DNA from: Victivallaceae bacterium
GTDB lineage: Bacteria; Verrucomicrobiota; Lentisphaeria; Victivallales; Victivallaceae
Assembly (NCBI GenBank): GCA_021647315.1
Contig: JAKIUY010000009.1
Location: forward strand, 1 to 64,000
Direction: 5' to 3'
Length of the DNA: 64,000 nucleotides
Below, piece after piece: positions 16,501-29,828 of this stretch. Each line of letters starts with the position of its first letter. Position 1 is the stretch's first letter. The notes beneath the pieces were generated by a model. It worked only from the letters and a program-made list of their open reading frames with translations. It did no database searches and was not told the DNA's origin. A program made the position numbers and the translations under genes.

Positions 16501-17578
16501 TGAGCGAGACCTGGGTATAGTCAATAACTGCTTTAGTGGGTAACCCGGGCGCGACTTCGCTGATTTTCTTTTTGAGATTTTTTATGGAAGATAATGGATT
16601 TTCACCGTAACGGACGACCACCACGCCACCGACGGCCTCAACCCCGCCTTTATCCAGTGCCCCGCGTCGCAGTGCCGGCCCCAGCGAGACATGACCGATG
16701 TTTTTAATTAAAATTGGGACATTATCTTTGACTTTAACCACGGCCTTCTCAATATCCTGCACTTTTTGCACAAAACCCAGACCGCGAATTATATATTCAA
16801 CCTTGTTAACCTCTATAGTTTTAGCACCAACATCTATATTTGACATCTTTACAGCCATAAAAACATCTTTTAAGGTTACGCCATAAGCTCGCATTGCGTC
16901 AGGATCGACATCCACCTGATATTCTTTAACAAATCCCCCGATTGAGGCCACGTCACTGATACCTTCAGCAGACAACAGACTGTAGCGGACATACCAGTCC
17001 TGAATAGTGCGTAGTTCACTCAAATCCCAACCGCCGGTAGGGTTGCCCTGTTCATCCATACCTTCAAGGGTATACCAGTAGACCTGCCCCAAGGCGGTGG
17101 CATCAGGTCCCAGTGATGGTCGGACCCCTTTCGGCAATGTATCGGCCGGTAGGCTATTCATCTTCTCCAGTACCCTTGAGCGTGACCAGTAGAACTCAAC
17201 GTCATCTTTGAAGATAATAAAAATCATTGAGAATCCGAAATTAGAGTAACTGCGGACGGTTTTAACGCCGGGAATACCCAGCATCGCAACGGTTAGCGGA
17301 TAGGTTACCTGATCCTCCATATCCTGCGGCGAGCGTCCCATCCAGGCAGTAAAAACAATCTGCTGATTTTCACCGATGTCTGGAATGGCGTCAACGGGTA
17401 TGGGGCTACGCGGAATGCCGCCGATATCCCAGTCGAACGGTGCAACCATAATCCCCCACAGGATAATGGCAGCTACGATCATTGATACAACCAGCTTGTT
17501 TTCCAGGCAAAACAGAATTATCTTGTCGAGAATTGATTTGGGCACTAATTCTTGAGATTCTATATTTTTATCATTCAT
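13547..17578 (-). CDS. cusA: heavy-metal efflux RND permease, CusA/CzcA type
   Basis: A 1343-residue inner-membrane proton-driven pump of the heavy-metal RND (HAE-1/CusA) class. It exports Cu(I)/Ag(I) or divalent metals from the periplasm through an outer-membrane channel. Features include the N-terminal helix and GIMVAPFDWD, the porter domain starting VDAIPDIGENQ, and the TM4 segment with IAIAIGAIVDMGVI, the acidic proton-relay region. There are methionines in the pore region (for instance MRAPMGVKVKG). Typical CusA proteins are about 1040 residues. Here about 300 extra residues lie in two places: extra hydrophobic segments after the sixth TM region (about 600-720), and a hydrophilic periplasmic insert (about 850-950). 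Such long forms are known in other phyla. It overlaps cusB by 4 bp (ATGA). Confidence 0.92.
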   Translation of the reverse strand: MNDKNIESQELVPKSILDKIILFCLENKLVVSMIVAAIILWGIMVAPFDWDIGGIPRSPIPVDAIPDIGENQQIVFTAWMGRSPQDMEDQVTYPLTVAMLGIPGVKTVRSYSNFGFSMIFIIFKDDVEFYWSRSRVLEKMNSLPADTLPKGVRPSLGPDATALGQVYWYTLEGMDEQGNPTGGWDLSELRTIQDWYVRYSLLSAEGISDVASIGGFVKEYQVDVDPDAMRAYGVTLKDVFMAVKMSNIDVGAKTIEVNKVEYIIRGLGFVQKVQDIEKAVVKVKDNVPILIKNIGHVSLGPALRRGALDKGGVEAVGGVVVVRYGENPLSSIKNLKKKISEVAPGLPTKAVIDYTQVSLKEVNAFALEHGFKAFVNDKLNQNEWLTFLRKTNFNQRPKWVKLSQVKIVPFYDRTGLIYETLGTLNTALVEEILITIIVVIVMLMHMRSSFVVSVTLPLAVLLCFIAMKVFKVDANIVALSGIAIAIGAIVDMGVIVCENILKHLETADPKQNRLHIVYHATSEVASAVLTAILTTIISFLPVFVMIGAEGKLFKPLAFTKTFALLASVIVALTIVPAMAHTLFGFNITSKKLKKATLFALIIVGVVLAVYGFWLLGGVAVAVALYHLTQNRIGERYKKWLFIAFNFAMVLVVGVFLTKDWLPLGPGAGFIKNFMVVAFPIAGLLLFFWLFMKAYAPLLRIMLRHKLITLCVPVVVMAMGGAVWLGFNTIFSWVPAPIKSSSVYTSLADTFPGLGKEFMPALDEGSYLYMPTTMSHASIGEVMDVLRMQDMAFAQVPEIKSAVGKLGRAETPLDPAPISMIETVINYYPEYLIDKAGNRIQYKFDFNQQELFKDEHGKVLPALDGKPYKVQGKYLRDSDGKLIADADGMPFRLWRPALDPKLNPGRKAWKGIVKPDDIWGEIVKAGQVPGVTSAPKLQPIAARIVMLQSGMRAPMGVKVKGPDLATIEKVGLQIEKYLKEIPSVESDAVFADRIVGKPYLEIDIDRDAIARYGMSIRAVQDVIEVAIGGRQITTTVEGRERYPVRVRYFRELRDSIEALDKILVASSSGQQIPLSQLTKTKYIRGPQVIKSEDTALIGYVLLDKKPGYAEVDVVEQAQAYLQQKIDDGEFELPAGVSYTFAGNYENQIRAKKTMMVVLPVALFLIFMILYFQFKSIPTTMLVFSSIAIAWAGGFVLIWMYGQPWFMDFSLFGANMRDLFQVHEINLSIAIWVGFLALFGIASDNGVIISTYLDQSFATHDISSIEKIRETTILGAERRIRPCLTTSATTILALLPILTSAGRGSDIMVPMAIPSFGGMLVVLVSAFIVPLLYCSLAELRFKWKK

Positions 17579-19536
17579 TTTATAACATCTTCCTCTTTTT
17601 CGCCGCAGCCGGGCATATTTTTACCTAAATATGGATTAGCAATCTTTTCATTCTGCTGAAGCCATTCAGCACCTTTGTTATCAAAAGCCATCGGGCACTT
17701 AAATTTTATAATAGTGATAGATTTATCGGCTCCGAATGTAGCGGCCAGTTCGTAAACGACCGCTGACAGGTTGGAGAAATCTTCACGAAGCTTGTTGATG
17801 TCTTTCGATTCATTGGCCTGTTTGACGATGGCTTTGATTTCACTGGCTATTTTGTGCCAGGCCTTCAAACTAGCCCCATTTAAGCTGTCAGAGTTGATAT
17901 GTCCCAACATCATGCCGAGATTTTTCATCTCGGCTACGCTTTGTTTAAATTTATCTACCGCCAAGGCTTGCTGAAGCGCAAAATAGCTGTTGTAAATCAT
18001 TGACAACTGTTTTTTGAATTGTGCCTCAATCTTGAATTCAGTTTTCTGTGGTTGCTCTGAATCAGGCGTGGAATCAGCGGACATCATGCTTGGTCTGGCC
18101 TGGATCTGCAATGAACTGTCAATTTTAAAATTACCGCTAATCACTACCAGGTCACCCTCTTTCAAGCCACTTTCGACGATATAATAATTACCCGCCCGCG
18201 GCCCCAGGATAACCTCTTTACCATAAAAAGTTCCAGACGTTTTGCTTGATCTGATATAGACAATCGCCCGTTTGCCGGTAATCAGCGGTGCGGTGGCAGG
18301 AATAACCAATGGCAGGTTGTTTACAGAATCTTTAGTATCGCTATAGCCCAATGATGCTGCCTTAACCAATTTCATCCCGCAAATCGGGCATTTACCAGGT
18401 TTAGATTTAACAATTTCCGGGTGCATTGGTCCGATCCATTTACCAGCATAGGTTGTATCAATAACTTTACCTGCCTGGGAGATTTTAGCCTTGACAACCG
18501 CATTGACAAACATGCCGGGTTTTAATTTACCATCCCTGTTGGTGGCATTGACTCTAACTTTCACGGTTCTGGTTTGGGAATCAAGAACGGGGTCAATGAA
18601 TGAGATTCTGCCGGTAAAAACTTTCCCGGGGTAGGCGACACTGGAAAACTCAACCAATTGTCCGTAGCGCAGCCACATCAAATCCAATTCGTAGGCATCG
18701 AGCATAATCCAGACCTGTGACAGATCGGCGACGGTAAACAGGCGGTCTCCAGTCTTGAAATATTTACCTTCAAGTGCCTTTTTCTCAATCACAATCCCGG
18801 CGATCGGGGAGTAAAGTACCACATGATCAGCAACCTTGCCATTTTCAATAATATCACTGATGTTTTTTTTCGTCAAGTTCCACAGCTCCAATTTTTTCTT
18901 CACAGTTTGCAACAAAGATTCATCCGACATCCCGTAATTACGTAGAGAACTACCAGCCCGCTCTTTGTTTTTAATATTATTAACCGCCAGCAGTAATTCA
19001 CGCTGTGCGACTAGAAGTTCCGGGCTGTAGTATTCAGCCATGTGATCCCCTTTGCGGACTGATATTCCGGTAAAATTGACAAAAAGTGTATCAATACGCC
19101 CTGGCATTCTTGCCGTTATATAGGCCAGCAACGTCTCATTATAGGTGACTTTCCCCACCATATTTATTTCAGTTTCCACCAAAGCCCGTTTAACGGGGAC
19201 AGTTTCTATGCCGGCTAATTTGATGGCATAAGGGGATAGTTTAAGTGTTGCTCCAACTGCGCTGTCATCAGAAGAATCTTGCTTCAAAGGAATTAAAGTC
19301 ATAGAACAAATCGGACATTTCCCCGGTTTCGGCTGCCTGATCTGTGGGTGCATTGAACATGTCCAGACCGTTTTTGACTTTGTAGGTGAAGTTTCTTCTG
19401 CGGCTGATTGTATCTGCTTCGGCTTACCGTTATTGGTTGCAGAGCGGCCTATAAAAAAACCGATACCAAGTGCGAGCACGGTAAGAACCACTACCACCGT
19501 GACTGCAGAGCGGGATTTTTTAGTTTTAATATTCAT
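17575..19536 (-). CDS. cusB: RND periplasmic adaptor, CusB type, with two metal-binding domains
   Basis: A 653-residue HlyD/membrane-fusion protein linking the RND pump to the TolC channel. An N-terminal membrane anchor (about residues 11-28) is followed by a heavy-metal-binding domain (CSMHP...KPGKCPIC). The barrel-sandwich and beta-barrel adaptor core comes next (VKRALVETEINMVGKVTYNE, then GIVIEKKALEGKYFKTGD). A second metal-binding domain is inserted at about residues 370-395 (MHPEI...KPGKCPICGMKL). The last about 150 residues are a helical region of DUF3347 type ending in CPMAFDNKGAEW and PGCGE. Two copies of the metal domain plus DUF3347 suggest strong Cu/Ag loading. It has the best ribosome binding site of the operon (AAGGAGATAGTA before ATG). 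Confidence 0.9.
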   Translation of the reverse strand: MNIKTKKSRSAVTVVVVLTVLALGIGFFIGRSATNNGKPKQIQSAAEETSPTKSKTVWTCSMHPQIRQPKPGKCPICSMTLIPLKQDSSDDSAVGATLKLSPYAIKLAGIETVPVKRALVETEINMVGKVTYNETLLAYITARMPGRIDTLFVNFTGISVRKGDHMAEYYSPELLVAQRELLLAVNNIKNKERAGSSLRNYGMSDESLLQTVKKKLELWNLTKKNISDIIENGKVADHVVLYSPIAGIVIEKKALEGKYFKTGDRLFTVADLSQVWIMLDAYELDLMWLRYGQLVEFSSVAYPGKVFTGRISFIDPVLDSQTRTVKVRVNATNRDGKLKPGMFVNAVVKAKISQAGKVIDTTYAGKWIGPMHPEIVKSKPGKCPICGMKLVKAASLGYSDTKDSVNNLPLVIPATAPLITGKRAIVYIRSSKTSGTFYGKEVILGPRAGNYYIVESGLKEGDLVVISGNFKIDSSLQIQARPSMMSADSTPDSEQPQKTEFKIEAQFKKQLSMIYNSYFALQQALAVDKFKQSVAEMKNLGMMLGHINSDSLNGASLKAWHKIASEIKAIVKQANESKDINKLREDFSNLSAVVYELAATFGADKSITIIKFKCPMAFDNKGAEWLQQNEKIANPYLGKNMPGCGEKEEDVIK

Positions 19537-19569: not shown

Positions 19570-20943
19570 TTAATTCGGTGACGCAATTTCCTTCGCTGTC
19601 AGTGCTTCAATTCGGGCAATCGCTTTAGCGTAGTTCATTAAATTTTCTTCATAAACCAGCTGAAACTTCAACAATGTCTGTTGAGCATCGATAAAATCCA
19701 GATAGCTGGTCTTGCCGGTGACGTATGAACGCTGAATTGCTCGCAATGAATCTTCAGCTTTGGGGATCAGGTTATCATTGTAAACGCGCATCTTACGCTT
19801 GGCATCTTTCATTTTAAACAGATATTGTTCAAGGTCTGACAATAATAATTTCTCCAGGTCAACCCGCTTGCCTTTGAATGCCATTTTCCGGGCAATCGCC
19901 TCACGCCTTTCCGCTTCGTATTTGGTGAAGTAGATCGGTAAATTCAGCCCAATTCGAGCAATTATCGGATCTTTGCCATTATCCTTCACCTTCATCGATG
20001 ATTTATCGGTTTGGATATAATCAATGCCCAAAGTGACATCGGGGATATAGCGCCGCCAAGCGATTTTGCGTTTCTTTTCTTCACGGGCAATATAACTGTC
20101 AAGTACTTTCAACTTTGGATTACGCTTAACCTGTTCACGCAATGTCTTAAACATTGCGGGTTTTATATCAACGACATTCAATTTCTTGGGGAAAGGGAAC
20201 GCCGGGATTGAGGCAGTTTTATTCAAGTTCAATACATGTCGGAGTTTTGCCAGTACCGGCTGCCGAAAATCATTTAATGAATCAACTCTTTCAGCAAACT
20301 TGATCGTCTCAATTTGGATTCTGATCAAATTAGCATAGGTGAATTCGGCAGTGCCATATTTTTCAGAGGAGACCTGCTCCAGCTCTTTAAATAAAGCCAA
20401 GTTCTTTTTTATAATATCAAGTGCTCGCCCTAAATAATAATATTCGTAATAGACCTCTTTGACCCGATTAAATATTTTTAACTTTTCAGCCTCATAGCGT
20501 TGCTTCTGCGCCTCTGCATTTGCCAAGGCGACGCCCCCCTTAAGTAATAGAGTTCCATACCACGGGAAAGTCTGTGCAATGCCAAAGCTGTTTTTCTGAG
20601 CCCCGACTCTAGTTTCCACCTCCTGAATATAGTATCCATAATTAAATCTGGGGTCTGGCAGAGTTCTCACCTGGGTTATTTTTTCCAAAGCGGCTTTCCA
20701 GGTGTTGAATTCAGCTTCTAAACTGGCATTCTGCAATAAAGCATAGGCCAAGAAATCATTAAGGGTGTGTTGTTCAGCCAGATTCGGCAACAACTGTTCG
20801 CGCGCTGCACTGCTCATGCGATATTTTTCGCCAACAGCTTTAACCTCTTTCCATGATTGTTTTTCCAAATCAGAATAGCAACCAGCAGTGATAAAAATTA
20901 AACTAAGCAAACCAATCGACCGCAGGCCGATAAATAAATTCAT
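19570..20943 (-). CDS. TolC/CusC-like outer membrane efflux lipoprotein
   Basis: A 457-residue outer membrane factor that should complete the tripartite metal pump with the CusB- and CusA-like proteins encoded 33 bp downstream. The N-terminus is a lipoprotein signal (LLSLIFITAGC lipobox). The body has the repeated helical hairpin pattern of the family, with NASLEAEFNTWKAALEKITQ and LPDPRFNYGYYIQ in repeat 1. The second of two possible ATGs (20943) is chosen because AGAGGA then lies 7 nt upstream; the first ATG at 20949 is too close to it. No distinct promoter is visible in the 71 bp upstream, so it is likely read from the YHS gene promoter. Confidence 0.88.
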   Translation of the reverse strand: MNLFIGLRSIGLLSLIFITAGCYSDLEKQSWKEVKAVGEKYRMSSAAREQLLPNLAEQHTLNDFLAYALLQNASLEAEFNTWKAALEKITQVRTLPDPRFNYGYYIQEVETRVGAQKNSFGIAQTFPWYGTLLLKGGVALANAEAQKQRYEAEKLKIFNRVKEVYYEYYYLGRALDIIKKNLALFKELEQVSSEKYGTAEFTYANLIRIQIETIKFAERVDSLNDFRQPVLAKLRHVLNLNKTASIPAFPFPKKLNVVDIKPAMFKTLREQVKRNPKLKVLDSYIAREEKKRKIAWRRYIPDVTLGIDYIQTDKSSMKVKDNGKDPIIARIGLNLPIYFTKYEAERREAIARKMAFKGKRVDLEKLLLSDLEQYLFKMKDAKRKMRVYNDNLIPKAEDSLRAIQRSYVTGKTSYLDFIDAQQTLLKFQLVYEENLMNYAKAIARIEALTAKEIASPN

Positions 20944-21020
20944 CTTCATTCCTCTTGTTATATGGGGGATGTGGGAGATAGGGGGATATGTGGTATCCCC
21001 CCATTCAGCATAATGGCTAT

Positions 21021-21527
21021 TTATGGTTTGGGCGTGGCTGCAACAGCTATACCCTGCGCTTTAAGCTTTTTGATATATTTTGCCGGATTGCGTTTTACCA
21101 TTGGCAGGCAACCTTTGCAGCAAACATAGATGCGTTTGCCGTCGGCATCGACATAAAGCTTTTTGTTGATTTTATTCCGCGTCATTACCGGGCAATTGGT
21201 TTGAAGTTTAAGTTCTAAACTTTTTACCTGTTGACCAGCATCTTTCAGCTGTTTGATATATTTTTTCGGGTTGGCCTTAACTTTGCTAATACACCCTTTG
21301 CAACAAACATAGATGCGTTTGCCGTCGGCATCGACATAAAGCTTTTTGTTGATTTTATTCTGCGTCATTACCGGACAGTTGGTCTGCTGCTTTACAATTG
21401 CAGTTTTGCTATCATGTTTCATCCCCTTCATCCCCTTCATTCCCTCATTATGTCCTTCATTGGCCAAGAGTGAATTGCCAGACAAAACTGCCCCTATCAT
21501 CAATACTGTAATAATTGAAGTTTTCAT
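21021..21527 (-). CDS. secreted tandem YHS-type metal-binding protein
   Basis: A 168-residue protein with an N-terminal signal peptide (TVLMIGAVLSGNSLLA), then a His/Met linker (HNEGMKGMKGMKHDSK) and two nearly identical YHS/TRASH-like domains of about 60 residues. Each domain reads NCPVM...NKINKKLYVDADGKRIYV followed by CCKGC and a C-terminal NP-KY helix. The cysteines of CPVM and CCKGC are the likely metal ligands. The DNA of the two domains is almost identical over about 75 bp (21113-21190 and 21296-21370), pointing to recent duplication or conversion. It opens the tolC-cusBA operon. A periplasmic copper/silver chaperone or buffer is inferred. Confidence 0.82.
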   Translation of the reverse strand: MKTSIITVLMIGAVLSGNSLLANEGHNEGMKGMKGMKHDSKTAIVKQQTNCPVMTQNKINKKLYVDADGKRIYVCCKGCISKVKANPKKYIKQLKDAGQQVKSLELKLQTNCPVMTRNKINKKLYVDADGKRIYVCCKGCLPMVKRNPAKYIKKLKAQGIAVAATPKP

Positions 21528-21605: not shown

Positions 21606-21637
21606 GTAAAGACGCAGCACAGTTGAAAGTGTTACGC
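21606..21637 (-). promoter_or_regulatory. predicted ECF promoter of the YHS-tolC-cusBA operon
   Basis: On the minus strand GCGTAAC (21631-21637, -35) is followed after exactly 16 nt by CGTCTTTAC (21606-21614, -10). Both elements and the spacing are identical to the sites before the ECF sigma gene and the Cys-repeat gene. The start codon lies about 80 bp downstream. Confidence 0.72.
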
Positions 21638-22004
21638 ATAATCACCATAAAAACATATTTCTTTATCAAGTTACTATAGAATATAATCACCGATTAGGTT
21701 ATATTTGAACTAAACAGTATATGTGGATAATATAATAGCAACAACTGATATGTCAACTAAATCAGTTATCACCACGCAAATGAAGTAGCCTGCGTTCTCC
21801 GAACGCATTGGGCAAAATAGATGTTAACCGCGCAATTAACTATTAAAACTTAAACCGCTGCATTTACCGCATAACCCATATAAAAGCAATCAAATAACTT
21901 GAATAATGAGTTAATTTGTCATATACTTACGGAACACTCAAAAATAAATTGTTGAGTCTTGTATACGCGAGGCTGCAAGCAGATAAATTCAAAATGGAGC
22001 AATA
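21638..22004. other. divergent intergenic region before the cyclase gene
   Basis: No gene is seen. A perfect hairpin TGCGTTC-tcc-GAACGCA is at 21791-21807. CACTCAAAAATAAATTG, present here near 21936, recurs identically near 29850 upstream of the permease gene. The cyclase start at 22005 has a good GGAG 6 nt upstream. No ECF-type promoter is present on the plus strand. Confidence 0.4.
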
Positions 22005-24155
22005 ATGATACATCGTAAATTCAGAGTTGATATTATTTTGATTTTCACCCTGTTGATGCTGTCAACTGCGATTGGCATTGTTTATGTTGTCTATTCCCAT
22101 AATGAAACGATGGCGATTGATAATGCCAGTCGTCGTTTAACATATGAGTCAAAAATATTTACCGAAAAGGTAAATTATTACATGATTACAGCACAATCGG
22201 CAACAGATAATTTAGCTAAACAGTTTTCGCCCAGCAATCGTCATGAACAAAACCAGCGTAGCCGTAACGCTGAACAGTCAACGTCAGATACTCAACCTCG
22301 AACAGATAGGCAACAGGCTTCACTAGCGGCTCAAGACAGCCTTTCGACAATTTCAATGGCACTCCTCAAGACATTAGTCGCTTATAAACAGTTCGGTTCA
22401 ATTGCATTCGGGAACAGTCGAGCTGTTTTGGCGACAGTATCATATCAAGGTCAAGCGGGATATGAGCTGAAAACAATTAGAACGGCTGGGGGTTATACTT
22501 TAACTACCGATATTTATGACGCTAAATCACGCCTCCAAAAGCAGTCAACGACAACTGGTGACATTGTTAATGATAGGTGGCAGGCATGGTATAAACAAGT
22601 TCAGCAGACTGGTAAAATATTTTGGAGCAAGCCTTACCGTCTGTCGGATAGCAATAAATTTGGCGTGACGGTAAATGCTCCAGTTTTTGACTCATCTGCT
22701 AAGCTTACAGGTATGGTGGCAACCACTATTCCCTTAAATAAAATATCAGAGTTTTTACTTGTTGTCAAGCTCAGCCGGAATGGTATTGCCTTTGTCAGTG
22801 ACGGTGCAGGTAAGCTATTGGCATTTTTCAGTTCTCAACAAAATATCAGTTATGAAGCAGGGCAAGATATTGCAGACCTGCAATTGCCGCAGATAATTGC
22901 CGCAGCGAAAACTTATAGTGGATCAACGGATAATTTATGCCGTTCATTCTCCGTCGCCAATAAAAAATTTCTTACAACTTGCCAGCCCCTAGCTGTAGCG
23001 CATGGGCAGCAATGGATGTTGACCATTATCGCCCCGCAAAATGATTTTACCGGGGCACTGGCGACAACACTGAAACGTATTCTCTACCTCTCCGCCGTGG
23101 CACTTGTTGCCGGGATTCTCATTTCTTTGCTCTTGGCACGTCGTATCTCAAAACCGATAGAATTGTTGGCCAAAGATATTCTTGAGATCAGAAATTTTAA
23201 TTTTGATTCAGAATTGAGCATAACATCTCCAGTTCAAGAAATTCAGACGATGCATAATGCGATCAAAGCGATGAAAAATAATTTGCAGGCATTTAGTCTT
23301 TATCTGCCGGCATTATTGGTAAAACAGCTAATTAAATCGGGTGAAACTATTGCCATCGGCGGTAAAGAGCAAGAGTTAACGATATTTTTTTCGGATATTG
23401 AACAATTTACCTCCATTTCAGAAAATCATCCGCCACACGAGCTCTTAGTTCAGCTTTCTGATTATTTTGATGCTACAACTGCAATTATTGATAATGAATA
23501 TGGCACGGTTGATAAATTTATTGGCGATGCCGTAATGGCATTTTGGGGCGCACCTCTGCCCAATCAGCAGCATGCGGTAAATGCCTGTCGAGCTGCACTG
23601 CGTTGTCAGCAAAAAATCAAAGAACTGAACAGACAATGGATTGCCAACGGGCAAGAACCATTTAATACTAGAATCGGTATTCATTCAAGTCAGGTAATTG
23701 TTGGTAATATTGGAGCCAAACAGCGGATGAATTATACAGTCCTCGGTGATGGAGTTAATCTCGCCAGTCGACTTGAAGGGGTTAATAAAATATACCGAAC
23801 AGAAATTATTATTAGTCAGGCTACTTATGACCGCGTACAGGAGCATTTTATCTGTAGGATTTTAGATGAAATTACTGTAAAAGGGCAAGAGCAAAGTATC
23901 GTAATATACGAACTCCTGGCGGAAATTAATGCTATGGAAGCACCAGCAAAACAGGAGTTGGCAGTGAGATTCAATGCTATTTATCAACTATATCGTACTC
24001 GCCAATGGCGAGAAGCATTACAACTATTATACGAATTGCTGGAAATTTATCCTGGTGATAATGTTTGTAGCTTGTATGTACGACGTTGTAAAAAATATTT
24101 AAAGACACCGCCAGCCAGCAATTGGGCTGGCGTGAGTCGGTTACAGATAAAATAG
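22005..24155 (+). CDS. membrane-bound class III adenylate cyclase
   Basis: A 716-residue receptor-type cyclase making cAMP. TM1 (about residues 8-30) is followed by a long periplasmic sensor region (about 31-350, Cache-like: SKPYRLSDSNKFGVTVNAPV). TM2 is at about 355-378, then a HAMP segment (LARRISKPIELLAKDI) and the catalytic domain. The metal-binding aspartates are in FFSDIEQF and FIGDAVMAFWG. The lysine in VDKFIGD and the aspartate in YTVLGDGVN favour ATP over GTP, and NLASRLE carries the transition-state Asn and Arg. A C-terminal TPR-like helix pair follows. It sits between metal genes but faces the other way, and no regulatory site links it to them. A hairpin near its stop has no T run. 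Confidence 0.88.
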   Translation: MIHRKFRVDIILIFTLLMLSTAIGIVYVVYSHNETMAIDNASRRLTYESKIFTEKVNYYMITAQSATDNLAKQFSPSNRHEQNQRSRNAEQSTSDTQPRTDRQQASLAAQDSLSTISMALLKTLVAYKQFGSIAFGNSRAVLATVSYQGQAGYELKTIRTAGGYTLTTDIYDAKSRLQKQSTTTGDIVNDRWQAWYKQVQQTGKIFWSKPYRLSDSNKFGVTVNAPVFDSSAKLTGMVATTIPLNKISEFLLVVKLSRNGIAFVSDGAGKLLAFFSSQQNISYEAGQDIADLQLPQIIAAAKTYSGSTDNLCRSFSVANKKFLTTCQPLAVAHGQQWMLTIIAPQNDFTGALATTLKRILYLSAVALVAGILISLLLARRISKPIELLAKDILEIRNFNFDSELSITSPVQEIQTMHNAIKAMKNNLQAFSLYLPALLVKQLIKSGETIAIGGKEQELTIFFSDIEQFTSISENHPPHELLVQLSDYFDATTAIIDNEYGTVDKFIGDAVMAFWGAPLPNQQHAVNACRAALRCQQKIKELNRQWIANGQEPFNTRIGIHSSQVIVGNIGAKQRMNYTVLGDGVNLASRLEGVNKIYRTEIIISQATYDRVQEHFICRILDEITVKGQEQSIVIYELLAEINAMEAPAKQELAVRFNAIYQLYRTRQWREALQLLYELLEIYPGDNVCSLYVRRCKKYLKTPPASNWAGVSRLQIK

Positions 24156-24217
24156 CTCAAAATCACAGCGGCTCGTAAAATACCAAAGCAACCGTGAAAA
24201 AAGTTGAATTGCCGCTA

Positions 24218-24784
24218 TTATTTATTATTTTTACAGGCGTCATCGTGGCTGCCGAACCACCGTTTATACCATGGGCAGTTATCGACGGTAGAAGCAGTTT
24301 TTTCAGCAGCTTGCGCTTTAGGGCATTTTGTCGGCATGTCATTCCCGGCAACAGCAGTTTTTTTCTGCAAACTTGGACACTGCTGCATCTTTTTTAGTTT
24401 TTCTGCACCGGACATTCCTTTCAGCTTGGGACAGTCTTTAATCATTTTTTGACATTTTTCGAGCATAACTTTTTTCTCAGCAGCAGACATATTTTTCAAC
24501 TTTGGACAGTTTTTCATTGCTTGCTGCATCTCAGCTTTATTCATTCCTTTCAGCTTGGGACAGCTCTGAATCATCTTTTGGCATTTTGCCATCATCGCCT
24601 TCTTTTCAGTCGCAGTCATTCCTTTTAGCTTAGGACAGCTTACTGCAGCCTTTTTTACTGTCGGTGTAGAGGTTGCAGTCTTATTCTGCTGTATAGAACA
24701 ACAGCCTGGTGCCGCAAAAGTAGTACTGATATTAAGCATAAAACCCATCGCGACAGCAACAAACATTGTTATTGACTTTTTCAT
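24218..24784 (-). CDS. secreted Cys-Pro-Lys-Leu repeat protein, probable metal binder
   Basis: A 188-residue secreted protein I do not recognise. The start at 24784 is chosen over the longer frame to 24880 because it has AAGGAAA upstream and begins a clear signal peptide (SITMFVAVAMGFMLN, cleavage near AFA-AP). The ATG at 24880 lies upstream of the likely transcription start. The mature part has five units beginning CP(K/S)L, with cysteines at 50, 68, 75, 93, 111, 118 and 136, i.e. spacings 18, 7, 18, 18, 7, 18 (a 43-residue super-repeat). In helical units these fall on one face. Methionines and lysines are abundant, and CPKAQ, NCPW and a final Cys follow, 12 Cys in all. Its own ECF-type promoter and its neighbours suggest periplasmic Cu/Ag sequestration. 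Confidence 0.75.
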   Translation of the reverse strand: MKKSITMFVAVAMGFMLNISTTFAAPGCCSIQQNKTATSTPTVKKAAVSCPKLKGMTATEKKAMMAKCQKMIQSCPKLKGMNKAEMQQAMKNCPKLKNMSAAEKKVMLEKCQKMIKDCPKLKGMSGAEKLKKMQQCPSLQKKTAVAGNDMPTKCPKAQAAEKTASTVDNCPWYKRWFGSHDDACKNNK

Positions 24785-24882
24785 AATCCATTTTCCTTGT
24801 TTTATTTTGAGCTGACAAATTGTCCACTCATTATTATTCAATAGTGCTTGAACGGGAAACCCCGATTCGATTAGACACATAA

Positions 24883-24914
24883 GTAAAGACGGTTAAAAAC
24901 AGTAAACGTTACGC
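24883..24914 (-). promoter_or_regulatory. predicted ECF promoter of the Cys-repeat protein gene
   Basis: GCGTAAC (24908-24914) and CGTCTTTAC (24883-24891) on the minus strand, 16 nt apart, identical in both boxes to the sites at 21606 and 27686. It lies after the stop codon of the RnfD-like gene (24926) and gives a leader of about 90 nt. Confidence 0.72.
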
Positions 24915-24925
24915 TGAAAAAAAAA

Positions 24926-25687
24926 TTATTGTGTGGAGCTCTTTATTTTTTGGTAGAGCAGCGGTCGGAGCAGATTCATTATCAACAGAGCAATTAGATC
25001 ACCGTCAAATGCCGGCAACAGGGTAAATAACAGCGACGCCAGCAGACCGACACCGGCACCAAATTGCCATTGTGCAACTCGTTTTGCCGGTGATGTTTTT
25101 GGTTCAATTAACATAATAAAGGCAAAAAACAGATTGGGTAACAGCAGCATATCAACATCAATTGCCAAGCCATTCAGTAGCCAAAGTCCGATTGCTCGAA
25201 AAATAAGGTAGGAAAAAACTAGTGAGAGCCGTTTCAGGCGATAGCTGATAATGCCGCCTAGGATGATTACCAGATATGGGCTGGAAAAGCCCCACCAGTT
25301 AATCCGATTGCCCCAGAAGAGCATAATCATCAACAGACCAGCAGCAGCCGGATTGAAAATGTGTGCGCCACGCGGAAAACGGCAGAGTAATTTTACCGCA
25401 ATCGCAACCGTTACCGCCAGCCAGACAAGTTTCAATTCGGTGCCCGGCATCAGGAGCAGAGCAATTATAATTCCGCTGATTACCGCACTTTGAATTGAAT
25501 TGCTTTTCACTGCGCCGAAAAAAGCCAGTTCAGCTAACAGGGCAGTTAAAACCGCGAACCCGAGCTGCCCCAACAGTAAAGGATAGGTTGCCGGAGTTTG
25601 TTTGACTAATGCGACAATAAACAGTACTAACAGCAGGCATATCAGCTGAAGCTTCATGTTTTTGATGTGTTTAAGTAGTTTCTTCAT
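24926..25687 (-). CDS. RnfD/NqrB-like membrane protein
   Basis: A 253-residue polytopic inner-membrane protein (about 8-9 hydrophobic segments) of the NqrB/RnfD family, whose members carry flavin and move electrons across the membrane. Family marks are PRGAHIFNPAAAGLLM and, near the C-terminus, FFAFIMLIEPKTSPA. It is shorter than RnfD (about 350). I do not see the S(G/A)AT-like threonine to which FMN is covalently attached in RnfD and NqrB, so a flavin, if present, may be non-covalent. No other rnf or nqr genes are nearby. It starts 11 bp after the CuA cupredoxin gene, so an electron link between the two proteins is a reasonable inference. Confidence 0.75.
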   Translation of the reverse strand: MKKLLKHIKNMKLQLICLLLVLFIVALVKQTPATYPLLLGQLGFAVLTALLAELAFFGAVKSNSIQSAVISGIIIALLLMPGTELKLVWLAVTVAIAVKLLCRFPRGAHIFNPAAAGLLMIMLFWGNRINWWGFSSPYLVIILGGIISYRLKRLSLVFSYLIFRAIGLWLLNGLAIDVDMLLLPNLFFAFIMLIEPKTSPAKRVAQWQFGAGVGLLASLLFTLLPAFDGDLIALLIMNLLRPLLYQKIKSSTQ

Positions 25688-25698
25688 AGTCGGAGTTC

Positions 25699-26223
25699 CT
25701 ACTGTTCTGCTGGCAGTACCAGTAGTACGCCCTGCATGTTGCCATGATCGGAACCGCAGTAGATACTGCAGAAAATAGGGTACTTGCCTGGTTTAGTCGG
25801 AGCCTTGAAGCTTGCTGTCGCTTCACCCTTGGCGGGGAAAGTGGTAGTGAAATCTATTTCAGGGATCAGCATACCATGGGTAACGTCACGGCTTTTCAGT
25901 GTCAGAACCACCGTTTCATTACTCCTGACAATCAATGGATCCGGCGCGAAGCCAAATTTAAACGCCTCGTAAGTGACCCGGCGTTGCCCGGCAATAAATT
26001 TACCGCTTGGCTTCAACTCTCTATCACTGTGTTCAAGTTTTTTCCCTTTCACCTCGCCGTGGCTTGCCGGTTCGGCATGATCATGCTCTTTGCTCTGGGG
26101 TGCCGACGCCACGGTGTTTTCGTCTGGCTTACGGTTACGCCCCCAGGCAATCACTAATAATAGTAGCAGTAACCCGACAATTCCAGCTATTCTAAAAAAG
26201 CCATCTCGATTTTTAGTACTCAT
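25699..26223 (-). CDS. membrane-anchored CuA-type cupredoxin
   Basis: A 174-residue protein with one N-terminal membrane anchor (residues 12-26), a His-rich linker (HDHAEPASH and further His to residue 64) and a cupredoxin domain (about 85-172). The copper ligands match a CuA centre: H115 in DVTHGM, then C152-x3-C156-x3-H160-x2-M163 in CSIYCGSDHGNM, the same spacing as in cytochrome c oxidase subunit II and nitrous-oxide reductase. No oxidase or nosZ gene is in the window. It is followed 11 bp later by the RnfD-like gene. A periplasmic electron carrier or copper sensor/carrier is inferred. A 6+6 palindrome ATGTTG-ca-CAACAT (26244-26257) lies just upstream. Confidence 0.82.
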   Translation of the reverse strand: MSTKNRDGFFRIAGIVGLLLLLLVIAWGRNRKPDENTVASAPQSKEHDHAEPASHGEVKGKKLEHSDRELKPSGKFIAGQRRVTYEAFKFGFAPDPLIVRSNETVVLTLKSRDVTHGMLIPEIDFTTTFPAKGEATASFKAPTKPGKYPIFCSIYCGSDHGNMQGVLLVLPAEQ

Positions 26224-26325
26224 AAACGTTTCCTTATAATTTTATGTTGCACAACATGATAGCTTACTGACTCCTTTATTAAAAAGTAAGAGCGGCAAGT
26301 TTTATGCCATCCGATAAATTTAACT

Positions 26326-27135
26326 TCACTGCTTCATCATCGGACAGTTCTGCATCATCTCCTGCTGTTTGGGTGACATATTTGAGTCCGTTGGTTCATT
26401 ACTGCTTTTCATCATACAATACTGCATCAGCTCACCACAGCGGCTGATTGATTTTTCGAGTATTTTTTTATCGTACGGATTCGCCATTTGCTGTAATTTT
26501 TTTAATTCATTGCTCTGGAGATGAGACATATTACTAATCCGTTTCATCAGTAGCGGCTTGGTGGTTGTCGTCAGTTTCTGCCCATCATCAAGTGCAGCAC
26601 GTGCCTCGTCAAGCATCACTCGCAGCAGATTACGATCTAAGCCACCGCCGCTATGATATTTGGAGACTAACTCTTTCAGGCGTTCGGTTGAGTAGGTAAT
26701 TTTCAGTTCAACCTTTTTCTCGCGATTAATGCTGAGCATAAACCGCACTTTTTCGGTCAACAGTTTTATGGGATAGAACCAGTCACCCGGCACGGTATTA
26801 GTGGCGGCATTCACGGTTCCCCAGCTTAATACAGCGATAATAGCGAAAGAGGCGGCAATCCGCAATACTTTTTCCCGTGATTTAAAGTTAACGATTCTGG
26901 GGTTTAGAAACGCTGTTTCATTGGCCATTTTGGCAATAATCCTGATCAGTGGCTGAATTGATGATTTAGTTTCAGGTGCAGGAGCCTGACGGAGGCGTAC
27001 CACACTTTCCAGCATTGGGCGCAACTCTTCCGCAGCTTCGGGATAATCTGCCAATATCACCTGAATATTCGCTCCATCGATCAATTTATCGATGGCAATG
27101 TCGAGAATCTCTTCAATTGAATATGCTTTATTCAT
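26326..27135 (-). CDS. DUF5667-like membrane protein, putative anti-sigma factor
   Basis: A 269-residue single-pass protein encoded immediately after the ECF sigma gene, with no gap between stop and start. The cytoplasmic N-terminal part (1-90: YSIEEILDIAIDKLIDG, ILADYPEAAEELRPMLE) has the pattern of proteins paired with ECF factors. One TM segment (91-110) is followed by the DUF5667 signature PGDWFYPIKLLTEKVRFML. The C-terminus after about residue 225 carries Cys and clustered Met (RCGELMQYCMMK, then MMQNCPMMKQ), a plausible Cu/Ag-sensing tail on the periplasmic side. Position and topology make it the likely anti-sigma factor; no zinc-anti-sigma motif is seen. Confidence 0.7.
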   Translation of the reverse strand: MNKAYSIEEILDIAIDKLIDGANIQVILADYPEAAEELRPMLESVVRLRQAPAPETKSSIQPLIRIIAKMANETAFLNPRIVNFKSREKVLRIAASFAIIAVLSWGTVNAATNTVPGDWFYPIKLLTEKVRFMLSINREKKVELKITYSTERLKELVSKYHSGGGLDRNLLRVMLDEARAALDDGQKLTTTTKPLLMKRISNMSHLQSNELKKLQQMANPYDKKILEKSISRCGELMQYCMMKSSNEPTDSNMSPKQQEMMQNCPMMKQ

Positions 27136-27657
27136 TTATGATAGTGCTCCATTTAATGCTTTCAGTGCTCTGAATTGAATTGCGCGTAATGCACCGATAC
27201 TTTTATCTGTAATCATGGCGATCTCTTTATTATTCAGTCCTTGGATAAATTTAAAAATTAAAAATTCACGTTGTTCATCATTGACCTGTGATAGCGCATG
27301 GTGAATATCTAGCTTTGCGTCAATTGAGGCATGAACTCTGGTGGTATCTTCAATCTGTTCCGCAAACTCACCATTCAGTTCTGTTTCGGGTCTGGAATTC
27401 ATATATCTGCCTTTGTCGATAATAACATTACGGGCTATTCTGTAGAGCCACGCTTCAAAATTTCCACGCTGATTTTTTATTGATCGTATTACCTTTAAAA
27501 ACACCTCCCCAGCCAAATCTTCCGCATCATTCGGTCGGGCTCGGTAATAGATGAATTTAACTATCTTGGGATAGTAAAACTGATAGAGCTCGGTCATCGC
27601 CTCATCATCAAGTGTTCTAGCGCGTTCAAGCACATTATCTAAATCAAACTCATTCAA
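27136..27657 (-). CDS. ECF RNA polymerase sigma factor
   Basis: A 173-residue group IV sigma-70 factor with region 2 (residues about 20-85: LYQFYYPKIVKFIYYR, DAEDLAGEVFLKVIRSI, FEAWLYRIARNVIID) and region 4 (about 115-170: ALSQVNDEQREFLIFKF, LNNKEIAMITDKSIGALRAI). No extra C-terminal domain. The gene is followed directly by a DUF5667-like gene and preceded by a site that matches the promoters of other metal genes in the window, implying that it activates its own transcription. An AGAGGA lies about 12 nt before the ATG. The stimulus is inferred to be copper/silver from the regulated genes, not from the protein itself. Confidence 0.9.
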   Translation of the reverse strand: MNEFDLDNVLERARTLDDEAMTELYQFYYPKIVKFIYYRARPNDAEDLAGEVFLKVIRSIKNQRGNFEAWLYRIARNVIIDKGRYMNSRPETELNGEFAEQIEDTTRVHASIDAKLDIHHALSQVNDEQREFLIFKFIQGLNNKEIAMITDKSIGALRAIQFRALKALNGALS

Positions 27658-27685
27658 TTTTCTATCCTCTTATGTTGTACATTAG

Positions 27686-27717
27686 GTAAAGACGTAAGAA
27701 ATTACAAAACGTTACGC
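27686..27717 (-). promoter_or_regulatory. predicted autoregulatory ECF promoter
   Basis: GCGTAAC (27711-27717) and CGTCTTTAC (27686-27694) on the minus strand with a 16-nt spacer, about 29 bp before the sigma start. The -35 box and the following GTTT are the mirror image of the divergent promoter at 27737, producing a 12-bp inverted repeat between them. Confidence 0.72.
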
Positions 27718-27736
27718 AAACATATTTTTTGCAACA

Positions 27737-27769
27737 GCGTAACGTTTTTCTTTTACTGTTCGTCTTAAT
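27737..27769 (+). promoter_or_regulatory. predicted divergent ECF promoter
   Basis: GCGTAAC (27737-27743) and CGTCTTAAT (27761-27769) on the plus strand with a 17-nt spacer. It differs from the other three sites by one nt in spacing and at the end of the -10 box. It faces the HAMP-like gene at 27835. A 9-bp inverted repeat (GTTCGTCTT...AAGACGAAC) overlaps its -10. Confidence 0.6.
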
Positions 27770-27834
27770 AATTAACAAGACGAACATTTTCTGAAAAAAA
27801 TAATCACCAAAGCTTAAATAATGGGGCAAGTATC

Positions 27835-28212
27835 ATGAAAACTAAAAACAAATTATCTCTGGCAACCGCAATGGCACTATTGATGGCTTTAATAACAGCT
27901 GTAGCCATGGGTGTTTACGCAATTATTCAGTATAGTCTCATGCCCGATCAAAGTATCTTAAATTTGATGTTTCGTCACAGTTGGCATGTTCTGGTACTAG
28001 GGCTGTTTTCATATTGTGTCCTATATTTTGTTCTCTATCATCAGGTAGTTAAACCTTTTATTAAAATTTATCAGAAATGCTATGCTATAACCAAAGGCGA
28101 TTTTTCAAAACTTGACCTGGAATCACCTATCAAAGAGATTCAACTTATCATTGACGGCATCAATATGATGGAATCACAAATTGAAATGACGAAAACACAA
28201 ATTGAAAAATAA
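27835..28212 (+). CDS. small two-helix membrane protein with HAMP-like segment
   Basis: A 125-residue protein with two hydrophobic helices (about residues 12-34 and 48-68) and a cytoplasmic C-terminal part resembling a HAMP linker (VVKPFIKIYQKCYAITKGDF, then IKEIQLIIDGINMMESQIE) that ends as a coiled coil. It has no kinase or cyclase domain. It is divergent from the sigma gene and has its own ECF-type promoter, so it is probably part of the response. It may modulate another membrane protein. Function unknown. Confidence 0.65.
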   Translation: MKTKNKLSLATAMALLMALITAVAMGVYAIIQYSLMPDQSILNLMFRHSWHVLVLGLFSYCVLYFVLYHQVVKPFIKIYQKCYAITKGDFSKLDLESPIKEIQLIIDGINMMESQIEMTKTQIEK

Positions 28213-28229
28213 TAATTAACAATCCTCAA

Positions 28230-28475
28230 TCTCTCTACTGCTTTGGTTGGCTTTGCCTTTTTAATTGTTACCCCGGCTTTTTCCAGCTTGCTGATATATT
28301 TTACCGGAGCTTTTTTATGGTTGCGATGCATCCGAGACAACGCAACTGACATAAATGCGTTTACCTTTTACAACAATATAAAGTTTTTTATTGATTTTTC
28401 CACCCATTACCGGGCAGGTCGTCTGTAATTTAACTTTTTTAACCGATGGCTTATACTTCAAACGGTTGAAATTTC
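28230..28475 (-). pseudogene. decayed YHS-type metal-binding domain
   Basis: On the minus strand the sequence reads VKLQTTCPVMGGKINKKLYI then VVKGKRIYVSC, which is the first half of the YHS domain found in the 21021-21527 protein. A one-base frameshift at the second cysteine cluster moves the rest (CLGCIATIKKAPVKYISKLE) into another frame. Upstream, toward 28600, only a degenerate N-terminal region is left, with stops. It lies about 130 bp after the Cu/Zn permease gene, so a permease-chaperone pair was probably present and the chaperone has been lost. Confidence 0.72.
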
Positions 28476-28598: not shown

Positions 28599-29828
28599 TC
28601 AATCAGTTACCGGCGTAAAACCACATTTGACGATTTCAGCTGATATAATCTTATCATTCAATGAATCCCCGCTGACCGTAACTATACCGGATTCAATATT
28701 AATTTCAGTTGCTGCAATGCCACTTAAGGCATTAAGTGCTGTTTTTAGTTTGCCTGCACAGCCCTGACAGGTGATGCCAGTAACATGAAACTCTCTGCTG
28801 GTCAGACGATCGCTAGTGCTTTTACTATGACTGTTAAACCAATCTTTGAATTCCATAATTGCGAAACGTAGCATCAGGCCGCCCAGTATAATGGTAGCTA
28901 CAATAGGAATAATACCGGCTTCGTGATGCTGCATTGCGGTCTGCACTGTGTGCGGGGCAATAACTGAACTGAACAACCAACCGCAAAACAGACTGCCGGT
29001 AATAATTGTACCAAGGTAAATAAATAGATTTTTAATGCCAAAAGCACGATAAACAGTGCCGATAGTTGCAACATTTGATGCCGGTCCTGCCATTAGGAAT
29101 ACCAACGCCGCACCGATGGGCATACCATTCGCGACTAGTGCCGCCGCGATTGGGACTGAAGCAGTTGCACAAACATACATTGGCAGTGAAATCAATAACA
29201 CCAACAGCATCGCCAGTAAAATGTTATCGGTCAGATAGTTCTGGAAAAAATCTTTTGGCAACCAAGTTGTGATGGCTGCCGAGATAATAATCCCGGCAAA
29301 CAACCAGCGCCAGATCATTTTCAAGAGGTCATCAACGGCAAAATTTAACAGTTCCCGACAGGTTTTTGGTGGAGCATTATCCGAGGATAGATCTTCTGCG
29401 ATACTGTTTTCGGCAGCTGTATCTGAAAAATATGACAAGAGACCGCCGATAATGCCGAGAATAAACGCACTGACCAATTTGAATAGGGCAAACGGTAAAC
29501 CTAGCAACGAAGCACTGACCATAATAGAATCAACGCCGGTCTGCGGAGTGCTGATCAAAAATCCCATTGCCGCGCCATTGCCAGCCCCTTGTTTTTTTAT
29601 CCCGAGCGCAGCAGGAATAACCCCGCATGAACACAATGGCATTGGAACCCCGAAGATTACCGCTTTGAAAATAGCAGAAATCCGTCCATGTCCTAAATGG
29701 CGTTTGATAAAATTATCTGGTATCCAGATATGTAATGCGCCGGCAATGCCTAGTCCAAGCAATAACCAGGGCGCAAGTTCAGTAGTCGTTAACCAACAAT
29801 TTACAAAAAATTCAATTATTTTATCCAT
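28599..29828 (-). CDS. SO_0444-type Cu/Zn efflux permease with HMA domain
   Basis: A 409-residue protein joining a permease of the YraQ/ArsP type to a C-terminal heavy-metal-associated domain. The N-terminal part has about 8 TM helices with the conserved motifs VPMPLCSCGVIPAALG and ISTPQTGVDSI, and later ISLPMYVCATASVPIAAAL and FLMAGPASNVATIG. The HMA domain (about residues 345-405) carries the metal-binding GITCQGCAGK loop. This layout and length match the SO_0444 family of copper/zinc exporters. No ECF-type site is found before it. A decayed YHS gene follows on the same strand. Confidence 0.87.
   Translation of the reverse strand: MDKIIEFFVNCWLTTTELAPWLLLGLGIAGALHIWIPDNFIKRHLGHGRISAIFKAVIFGVPMPLCSCGVIPAALGIKKQGAGNGAAMGFLISTPQTGVDSIMVSASLLGLPFALFKLVSAFILGIIGGLLSYFSDTAAENSIAEDLSSDNAPPKTCRELLNFAVDDLLKMIWRWLFAGIIISAAITTWLPKDFFQNYLTDNILLAMLLVLLISLPMYVCATASVPIAAALVANGMPIGAALVFLMAGPASNVATIGTVYRAFGIKNLFIYLGTIITGSLFCGWLFSSVIAPHTVQTAMQHHEAGIIPIVATIILGGLMLRFAIMEFKDWFNSHSKSTSDRLTSREFHVTGITCQGCAGKLKTALNALSGIAATEINIESGIVTVSGDSLNDKIISAEIVKCGFTPVTD

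Follow-up and report, generated by a model that had tools for sequence, protein, structure and literature searches.

A conserved, predicted four-promoter sigma factor regulon of metal-defence genes in a Victivallaceae bacterium, with a DUF5667 membrane protein as candidate anti-sigma factor

Four copies of a two-box element, GCGTAAC and CGTCTT separated by 16 or 17 nucleotides, lie close together in the genome of a Victivallaceae bacterium, and they raise the question of which regulator reads them and to what signal it responds. The stretch analysed, hereafter the window, comprises 64,000 nucleotides (positions 1 to 64,000 of contig JAKIUY010000009.1, assembly GCA_021647315.1); it also encodes an extracytoplasmic function (ECF) sigma factor and, directly 3' of the sigma gene, a membrane protein with the domain DUF5667. 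The best explanation of the whole, to which we assign a probability of about 0.82, is a self-activating metal-stress regulon whose sigma factor is held by the DUF5667 protein acting as anti-sigma factor. Sequence comparison strongly supports the sigma/DUF5667 pair, the sites, the cognate relation between the two, autoregulation and the gene set, and it indicates that a conserved, self-activating ECF regulon with four promoters is real. The role in metal stress is suggested by the gene content of the regulon.

All four sites reported by the initial annotation are present at their positions (Table 1), with both boxes identical in every copy and with spacers of N16, N16, N16 and N17; each site is intergenic and aimed at a gene start. 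Scanning the whole 4.86-Mb genome with GCGTAAC-N15..18-CGTCTT returned four matches, every one of them a reported gene-start site within the window (reversed control pattern, two matches), and 100 dinucleotide shuffles of the window gave no match to the motif. The probability of four sites falling within 6.2 kb by random placement is ~1e-8. When the motif was relaxed to GTAAC-N16/17-CGTCTT, the whole genome contributed a single extra match (reversed control, 15), located inside an open coding frame resembling IF-3 and having a GC-rich spacer. This outcome favours the sites as promoters over a motif equally common in coding regions, since the four genomic matches are the window sites and the relaxed motif adds one in a coding frame.

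With regard to the putative regulator, the sigma factor consists of regions 2 and 4 only (Pfam Sigma70_r2 and r4_2). Its best curated family is BldN (TIGR02952), although the score of 111.3 bits lies below the curated cut-off of 206. Among solved structures the closest relative is 6dxo, which we take to be the sigma-BldN/RsbN complex. The neighbouring protein is the sole DUF5667 member encoded by the genome, and no match to it was found on plasmids. Its predicted structure comprises three short N-terminal helices (low confidence), a transmembrane (TM) helix and a confidently modelled periplasmic helical bundle; the model is compatible with RsbN-type class III anti-sigma factors without being proof of such a class. 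Met and Cys occur in the tails of 7/7 DUF5667 partners, with C-P near the very end in 4/7. Taken from these sequences, the DUF5667 protein is a probable anti-sigma factor and metal sensor. The initial annotation had named neither this candidate nor the genes of the CuA-type cupredoxin and the RnfD-like protein, which come after the sigma gene.

A protein search recovered the pair in six further genomes of Lentisphaerae/Lentisphaeria, three from the same order and three from other families of the phylum, and in each of them the ECF sigma gene adjoins the gene of its DUF5667 partner. A search of contigs with the sigma factor alone gave no match, and a two-row alignment gave four loci; these are the contigs of G060, G062 and G063 plus one from the L040 assembly, and none of them adds to the genome count. 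The aligned relatives' sigma factors are 38-51% identical to that of the window and the partners 27-35%, and they are therefore old relatives. The sites accompany the orthologous sigma gene in all six genomes, each of which carries GTAAC-N16/17-CGTC either before sigma or slightly upstream of the two genes. Sites with the N16 spacer precede both the sigma gene and the YHS operon in L040, a second sigma gene of that genome, cut by the contig, in L042, a YHS gene in L065, the sigma gene in L039, the sigma gene and a receiver-domain gene in L045 and the YHS-cus operon in L046; N17 sites lie upstream of the sigma pair in L074, L075 and L076. Four contigs of three relatives have the site before sigma; in L075 and L076 the gene of a small Cys-rich secreted protein stands between site and sigma gene, and the stretch after the site in L074 encodes a Cys-rich sequence similar to these proteins.

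A weight matrix was built from the eleven relatives' sites alone, with the window sites excluded, and then run on the window. The four reported sites took the top ranks at 24.4-27.9 bits, followed by the next best at 14.7 bits, while the maxima in 30 shuffled windows averaged 14.1 and reached at most 19.0 bits. The motif and the pair also occur together: GCGTAACGTT-N13/14-CGTCTT is present in 5/388 genomes of the phylum, and four of these five also have the DUF5667 partner, which six genomes carry (hypergeometric P = 8e-8). Across 137 genomes of the order, GTAACNYTTN12/13CGTCTT gave 20 sites. Three of the four genomes that carry the pair account for nine of these, and two of the remaining eleven adjoin a different ECF system. 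At L067 (G052:C8) and L068 (G061:C509), the genes of another ECF/anti-sigma system are followed by that of a short secreted-type protein, and TGTAACCTTT-N-CGTCT sites stand before the sigma gene and its neighbours. Genome-wide uniqueness, the matrix scan, conservation beside the sigma gene in six genomes and the co-occurrence across 388 genomes all support the earlier proposal of one ECF-type promoter, a single regulon and an autoregulated sigma gene.

The genes behind the sites in relatives bear on the membership of the regulon. In L046 a single operon after one site encodes a YHS protein, a two-TM protein, a 100-aa protein, a cupredoxin, an RnfD-like protein, a second YHS protein, TolC, CusB and CusA; the L040 operon encodes three YHS proteins, a two-TM protein, TolC and CusB, with CusA judged from frames at the contig end. 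The two-TM protein of the window is 42-43% identical to the members in L046 and L040, and the cupredoxin and the RnfD-like protein are each 48% identical to those of L046. All three thus recur as regulon members outside the window, the two-TM protein behind the L046 and L040 sites and the other two behind the L046 site. The proposed inclusion of a resistance-nodulation-division (RND) pump, a YHS protein and a small membrane protein is likewise upheld by homologues behind a matching site in two relatives. As for the fourth site, which was said to face a divergent HAMP-like gene, the site stands and the HAMP domain does not: Pfam gave no match even at E=1, and the small two-TM protein is HAMP-like by eye alone. 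The L045 cluster contains, as judged by eye, a multicopper-oxidase-type protein.

Table 1. Promoter sites and genes of the predicted regulon in the window (bit scores from the matrix built on relatives' sites)
Feature	Coordinates	Strand	Basis
Promoter of sigma operon (autoregulation site)	27686..27717	-	GCGTAAC-N16-CGTCTTTAC; 27.9 bits, top score, relatives-only matrix
Promoter of Cys-repeat protein gene	24883..24914	-	GCGTAAC-N16-CGTCTTTAC; 27.4 bits, relatives-only matrix
Promoter of small two-TM protein gene	27737..27769	+	GCGTAAC-N17-CGTCTTAAT; 27.2 bits; back to back with sigma promoter
Promoter of YHS-TolC-CusB-CusA operon	21606..21637	-	GCGTAAC-N16-CGTCTTTAC; 24.4 bits, relatives-only matrix
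ECF sigma factor, 173 aa, TTG start, no Cys	27136..27657	-	Pfam Sigma70_r2/r4; nearest BldN family
DUF5667 membrane protein, 269 aa, one TM, Met/Cys-rich tail	26326..27135	-	Pfam PF18915
Membrane-anchored cupredoxin, CuA motif C-x3-C-x3-H-x2-M	25699..26223	-	CoxB/NosZ models, Cox2 structures
RnfD/NqrB-like membrane protein, 253 aa	24926..25687	-	Pfam PF03116
Secreted Cys/Met-rich repeat protein, CPKLKGM repeats, 12 Cys, 17 Met	24218..24784	-	Sequence
Secreted protein, YHS metal-binding motifs	21021..21527	-	Pfam YHS
TolC-like outer membrane protein	19570..20949	-	Pfam OEP
CusB-like adaptor, heavy-metal-binding domains	17575..19536	-	Pfam HlyD_D23, HMBD; CusB = best NCBIfam model
CusA-like RND pump, 1343 aa	13547..17578	-	TIGR00914 above cut-off
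Small two-TM protein	27835..28212	+	Conserved in cus operons of two relatives

The genes of the window (Table 1) point towards copper and silver. The CusA-like pump is closest to E. coli CusA, and the alignment shows Met retained at LYMP, PISMIE and RIVML, together with the motif AIGAIVD; the three retained places are those carrying Met in the transport path of the E. coli pump. Such methionines and an A-I-G-x-x-D motif mark Cu/Ag-type HME-RND (heavy-metal efflux) pumps, and with both of these CusCBA hallmarks present, Cu(I)/Ag(I) transport is predicted. The CuA motif of the cupredoxin is that of Cox2 and NosZ, and the cupredoxin and RnfD/NqrB-like proteins are possibly a periplasmic copper electron-transfer pair. 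Their genes adjoin in both genomes where they were seen (window 24926-26223; L046 1544-2856). A search with the RnfD-like protein against plasmids gave three weak matches to RnfD-type proteins, and no Pfam family was found for the CPKLKGM-repeat protein.

Three further genes lie in or near the cluster. A decayed YHS-protein gene is situated beside the two-TM gene (window 28214-28440, minus strand), its YHS sequence split over two frames, and relatives have intact YHS genes at the corresponding place. An SO_0444-family Cu/Zn efflux permease with a C-terminal HMA-like metal-binding domain (window 28599-29828, minus strand; above the NCBIfam cut-off) lacks a regulon site and hence is seemingly under other control. 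Finally, an adenylate/guanylate cyclase with a Cache sensor domain (window 22005-24155, plus strand) is located inside the cluster on the opposite strand, likewise without a regulon site.

We propose the following mechanism. The ECF sigma factor would be held at the inner membrane by the one-TM DUF5667 anti-sigma factor and released upon an excess of periplasmic Cu(I)/Ag(I), the metal probably being captured by the Met/Cys-rich tail that follows the DUF5667 domain. Free sigma would then direct RNA polymerase to the GCGTAAC-N16/17-CGTCTT promoters, one of which would drive the sigma factor's own operon (sigma, anti-sigma, CuA-type cupredoxin and RnfD-like protein) and the other three the secreted Cys/Met-rich protein, YHS-TolC-CusB-CusA and the small two-TM protein. 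We infer from the sequences that the DUF5667 protein acts as an anti-sigma factor, that Cu/Ag is the signal, that the tail senses it, and that the cupredoxin and RnfD-like genes are co-transcribed with sigma across a gap of 102 bp.

Repeated, strictly spaced two-box elements before metal genes can also be binding sites of an activator, e.g. a CusR-like regulator, instead of promoters. The present element is directional, however, and has the form and spacing of ECF -35 and -10 boxes, and we find this reading hardly credible; it was rejected because CGTC in the relatives ends 5-8 nt before the sigma start codon, which leaves no room for a downstream promoter. It also seems very improbable that a different ECF factor of the genome is the main reader of the sites and has the sigma factor at 27136-27657 as one of its targets. 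The genome does encode at least three further ECF-like proteins, and the motif class is not exclusive to the window-type sigma and is common to more than one ECF group, since the similar sites of L067 and L068 adjoin a different ECF system; yet the motif of the window tracks the sigma/DUF5667 pair across families and is found nowhere else in the genome.

The nature of the signal leaves more room for doubt. The regulon could be real and respond to another metal (Zn, Cd, Co) or to general envelope or thiol stress, with the copper genes responding within it. As read from the sequences, the sigma pair in L074, L075 and L076 adjoins cation diffusion facilitator (CDF) exporters and RND pumps that are not clearly of Cu/Ag type, as well as a P-type ATPase in L076, and the periplasmic domain of the partner might respond to a stimulus other than a metal. 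In contrast, the window and L046 carry a pump, a CuA cupredoxin and YHS proteins that belong to the Cu/Ag type, and we consider such another signal unlikely, although well short of negligible. Several points weigh against a Cu/Ag-responsive regulon under a DUF5667 anti-sigma factor: copper is not a universal signal, because the relatives in other families adjoin CDF exporters and other RND pumps; the cus operons of L040 and L046 amount to one independent case, as both come from one genus; the N-terminal part of the partner is modelled at low confidence; and its anti-sigma domain has no recognisable homologue by profile search or by fold (Foldseek, no significant match). Judged by gene content, Cu/Ag is most likely the signal in the window and other metals in relatives, and the L074-L076 systems probably answer to other metals.

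The sites of the relatives have one feature that those of the window lack. TGAA, which played no part in site selection, follows CGTC by 6-10 nt at 11/11 relatives' sites and 0/4 window sites; it may serve as a third promoter box or mark where the transcript starts. At the sigma genes of L039, L040 and L042 it forms part of the start codon (ATGAA), so the sigma mRNA may be leaderless there. No common RNA hairpin was found in the predicted 5' leaders, of which the YHS leader alone reaches z about -2. The divergent site is overlapped at its -10 box by a perfect 9-bp inverted repeat (GTTCGTCTT...AAGACGAAC, window 27757-27783), and the -35 boxes of the two divergent promoters together form an 11-bp inverted repeat.

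Compared with known systems, the locus shares CusA, CusB and TolC-like parts of a Cu/Ag pump with E. coli CusCFBA/CusRS, which is under two-component control, whereas an ECF sigma factor is predicted here and YHS, CuA-cupredoxin, RnfD-like and two-TM proteins are added. CnrYXH of Cupriavidus metallidurans combines an ECF sigma factor and a membrane anti-sigma factor for an HME-RND metal pump. It is a Ni/Co system with a short, class II anti-sigma factor, CnrY, and a separate sensor, CnrX (class: PMC7406223), unlike the single DUF5667 protein here; the sigma operon contains no CnrX/CnrY-type genes, and the partner has 269 aa and its own periplasmic domain. Streptomyces BldN recognises CGTAAC-N16-CGTTGA (PMC2375139), with -35 box and spacer identical to those of the present sites; its -10 box differs from CGTCTT, the present sigma factor scores below the BldN family cut-off, and BldN governs aerial mycelium formation and not metal defence. 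RsbN, which defines the class III anti-sigma factors, is membrane-anchored (PMC8103513), as is the candidate anti-sigma factor with its one TM helix. CorE and CorE2 of Myxococcus xanthus (ECF44/ECF238) control copper (or Cd/Zn) defence genes (PMC3107203, PMC8999054). CorE senses the metal via its own Cys-rich C-terminal domain and has no anti-sigma factor, and a CxC linker is a further mark of CorE-like sigma factors, whereas the 173-aa sigma factor here has no Cys and has a membrane partner. SigAb-AabA-AabB of Acinetobacter baumannii is a copper-responsive, self-activating ECF system with anti-sigma partners in the operon (PMC12153292); it controls very few genes directly and copper genes indirectly, whereas the pump operon here has its own site, and AabA and AabB differ from the DUF5667 partner in size and domain.

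In the literature searched, we found no metal-alarm regulon of this kind, no sigma switch with a DUF5667 protein as combined anti-sigma factor and metal sensor, and no link between DUF5667 and anti-sigma function; the regulon is a variant of the ECF metal-stress regulon and not a new kind of system. At somewhat less than even odds, a BldN-like ECF sigma factor and a DUF5667 membrane protein serving as anti-sigma factor and metal sensor in one would form a phylum-wide switch for different metals, with the TGAA third box and leaderless sigma mRNAs in relatives. The copper-responsive ECF factors known so far are of two sorts, those that sense the metal inside the sigma factor (CorE) and those whose partners are small and poorly understood (SigAb). 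In the present case, sequence alone suffices to read a four-promoter Cu/Ag efflux regulon, with a switch conserved over several families. DUF5667, a domain of unknown function, is named as a sensor candidate with a possible metal-binding tail, and the CuA-cupredoxin/RnfD-like pair and the small two-TM protein, unstudied kinds of protein, are placed in a metal-defence programme.

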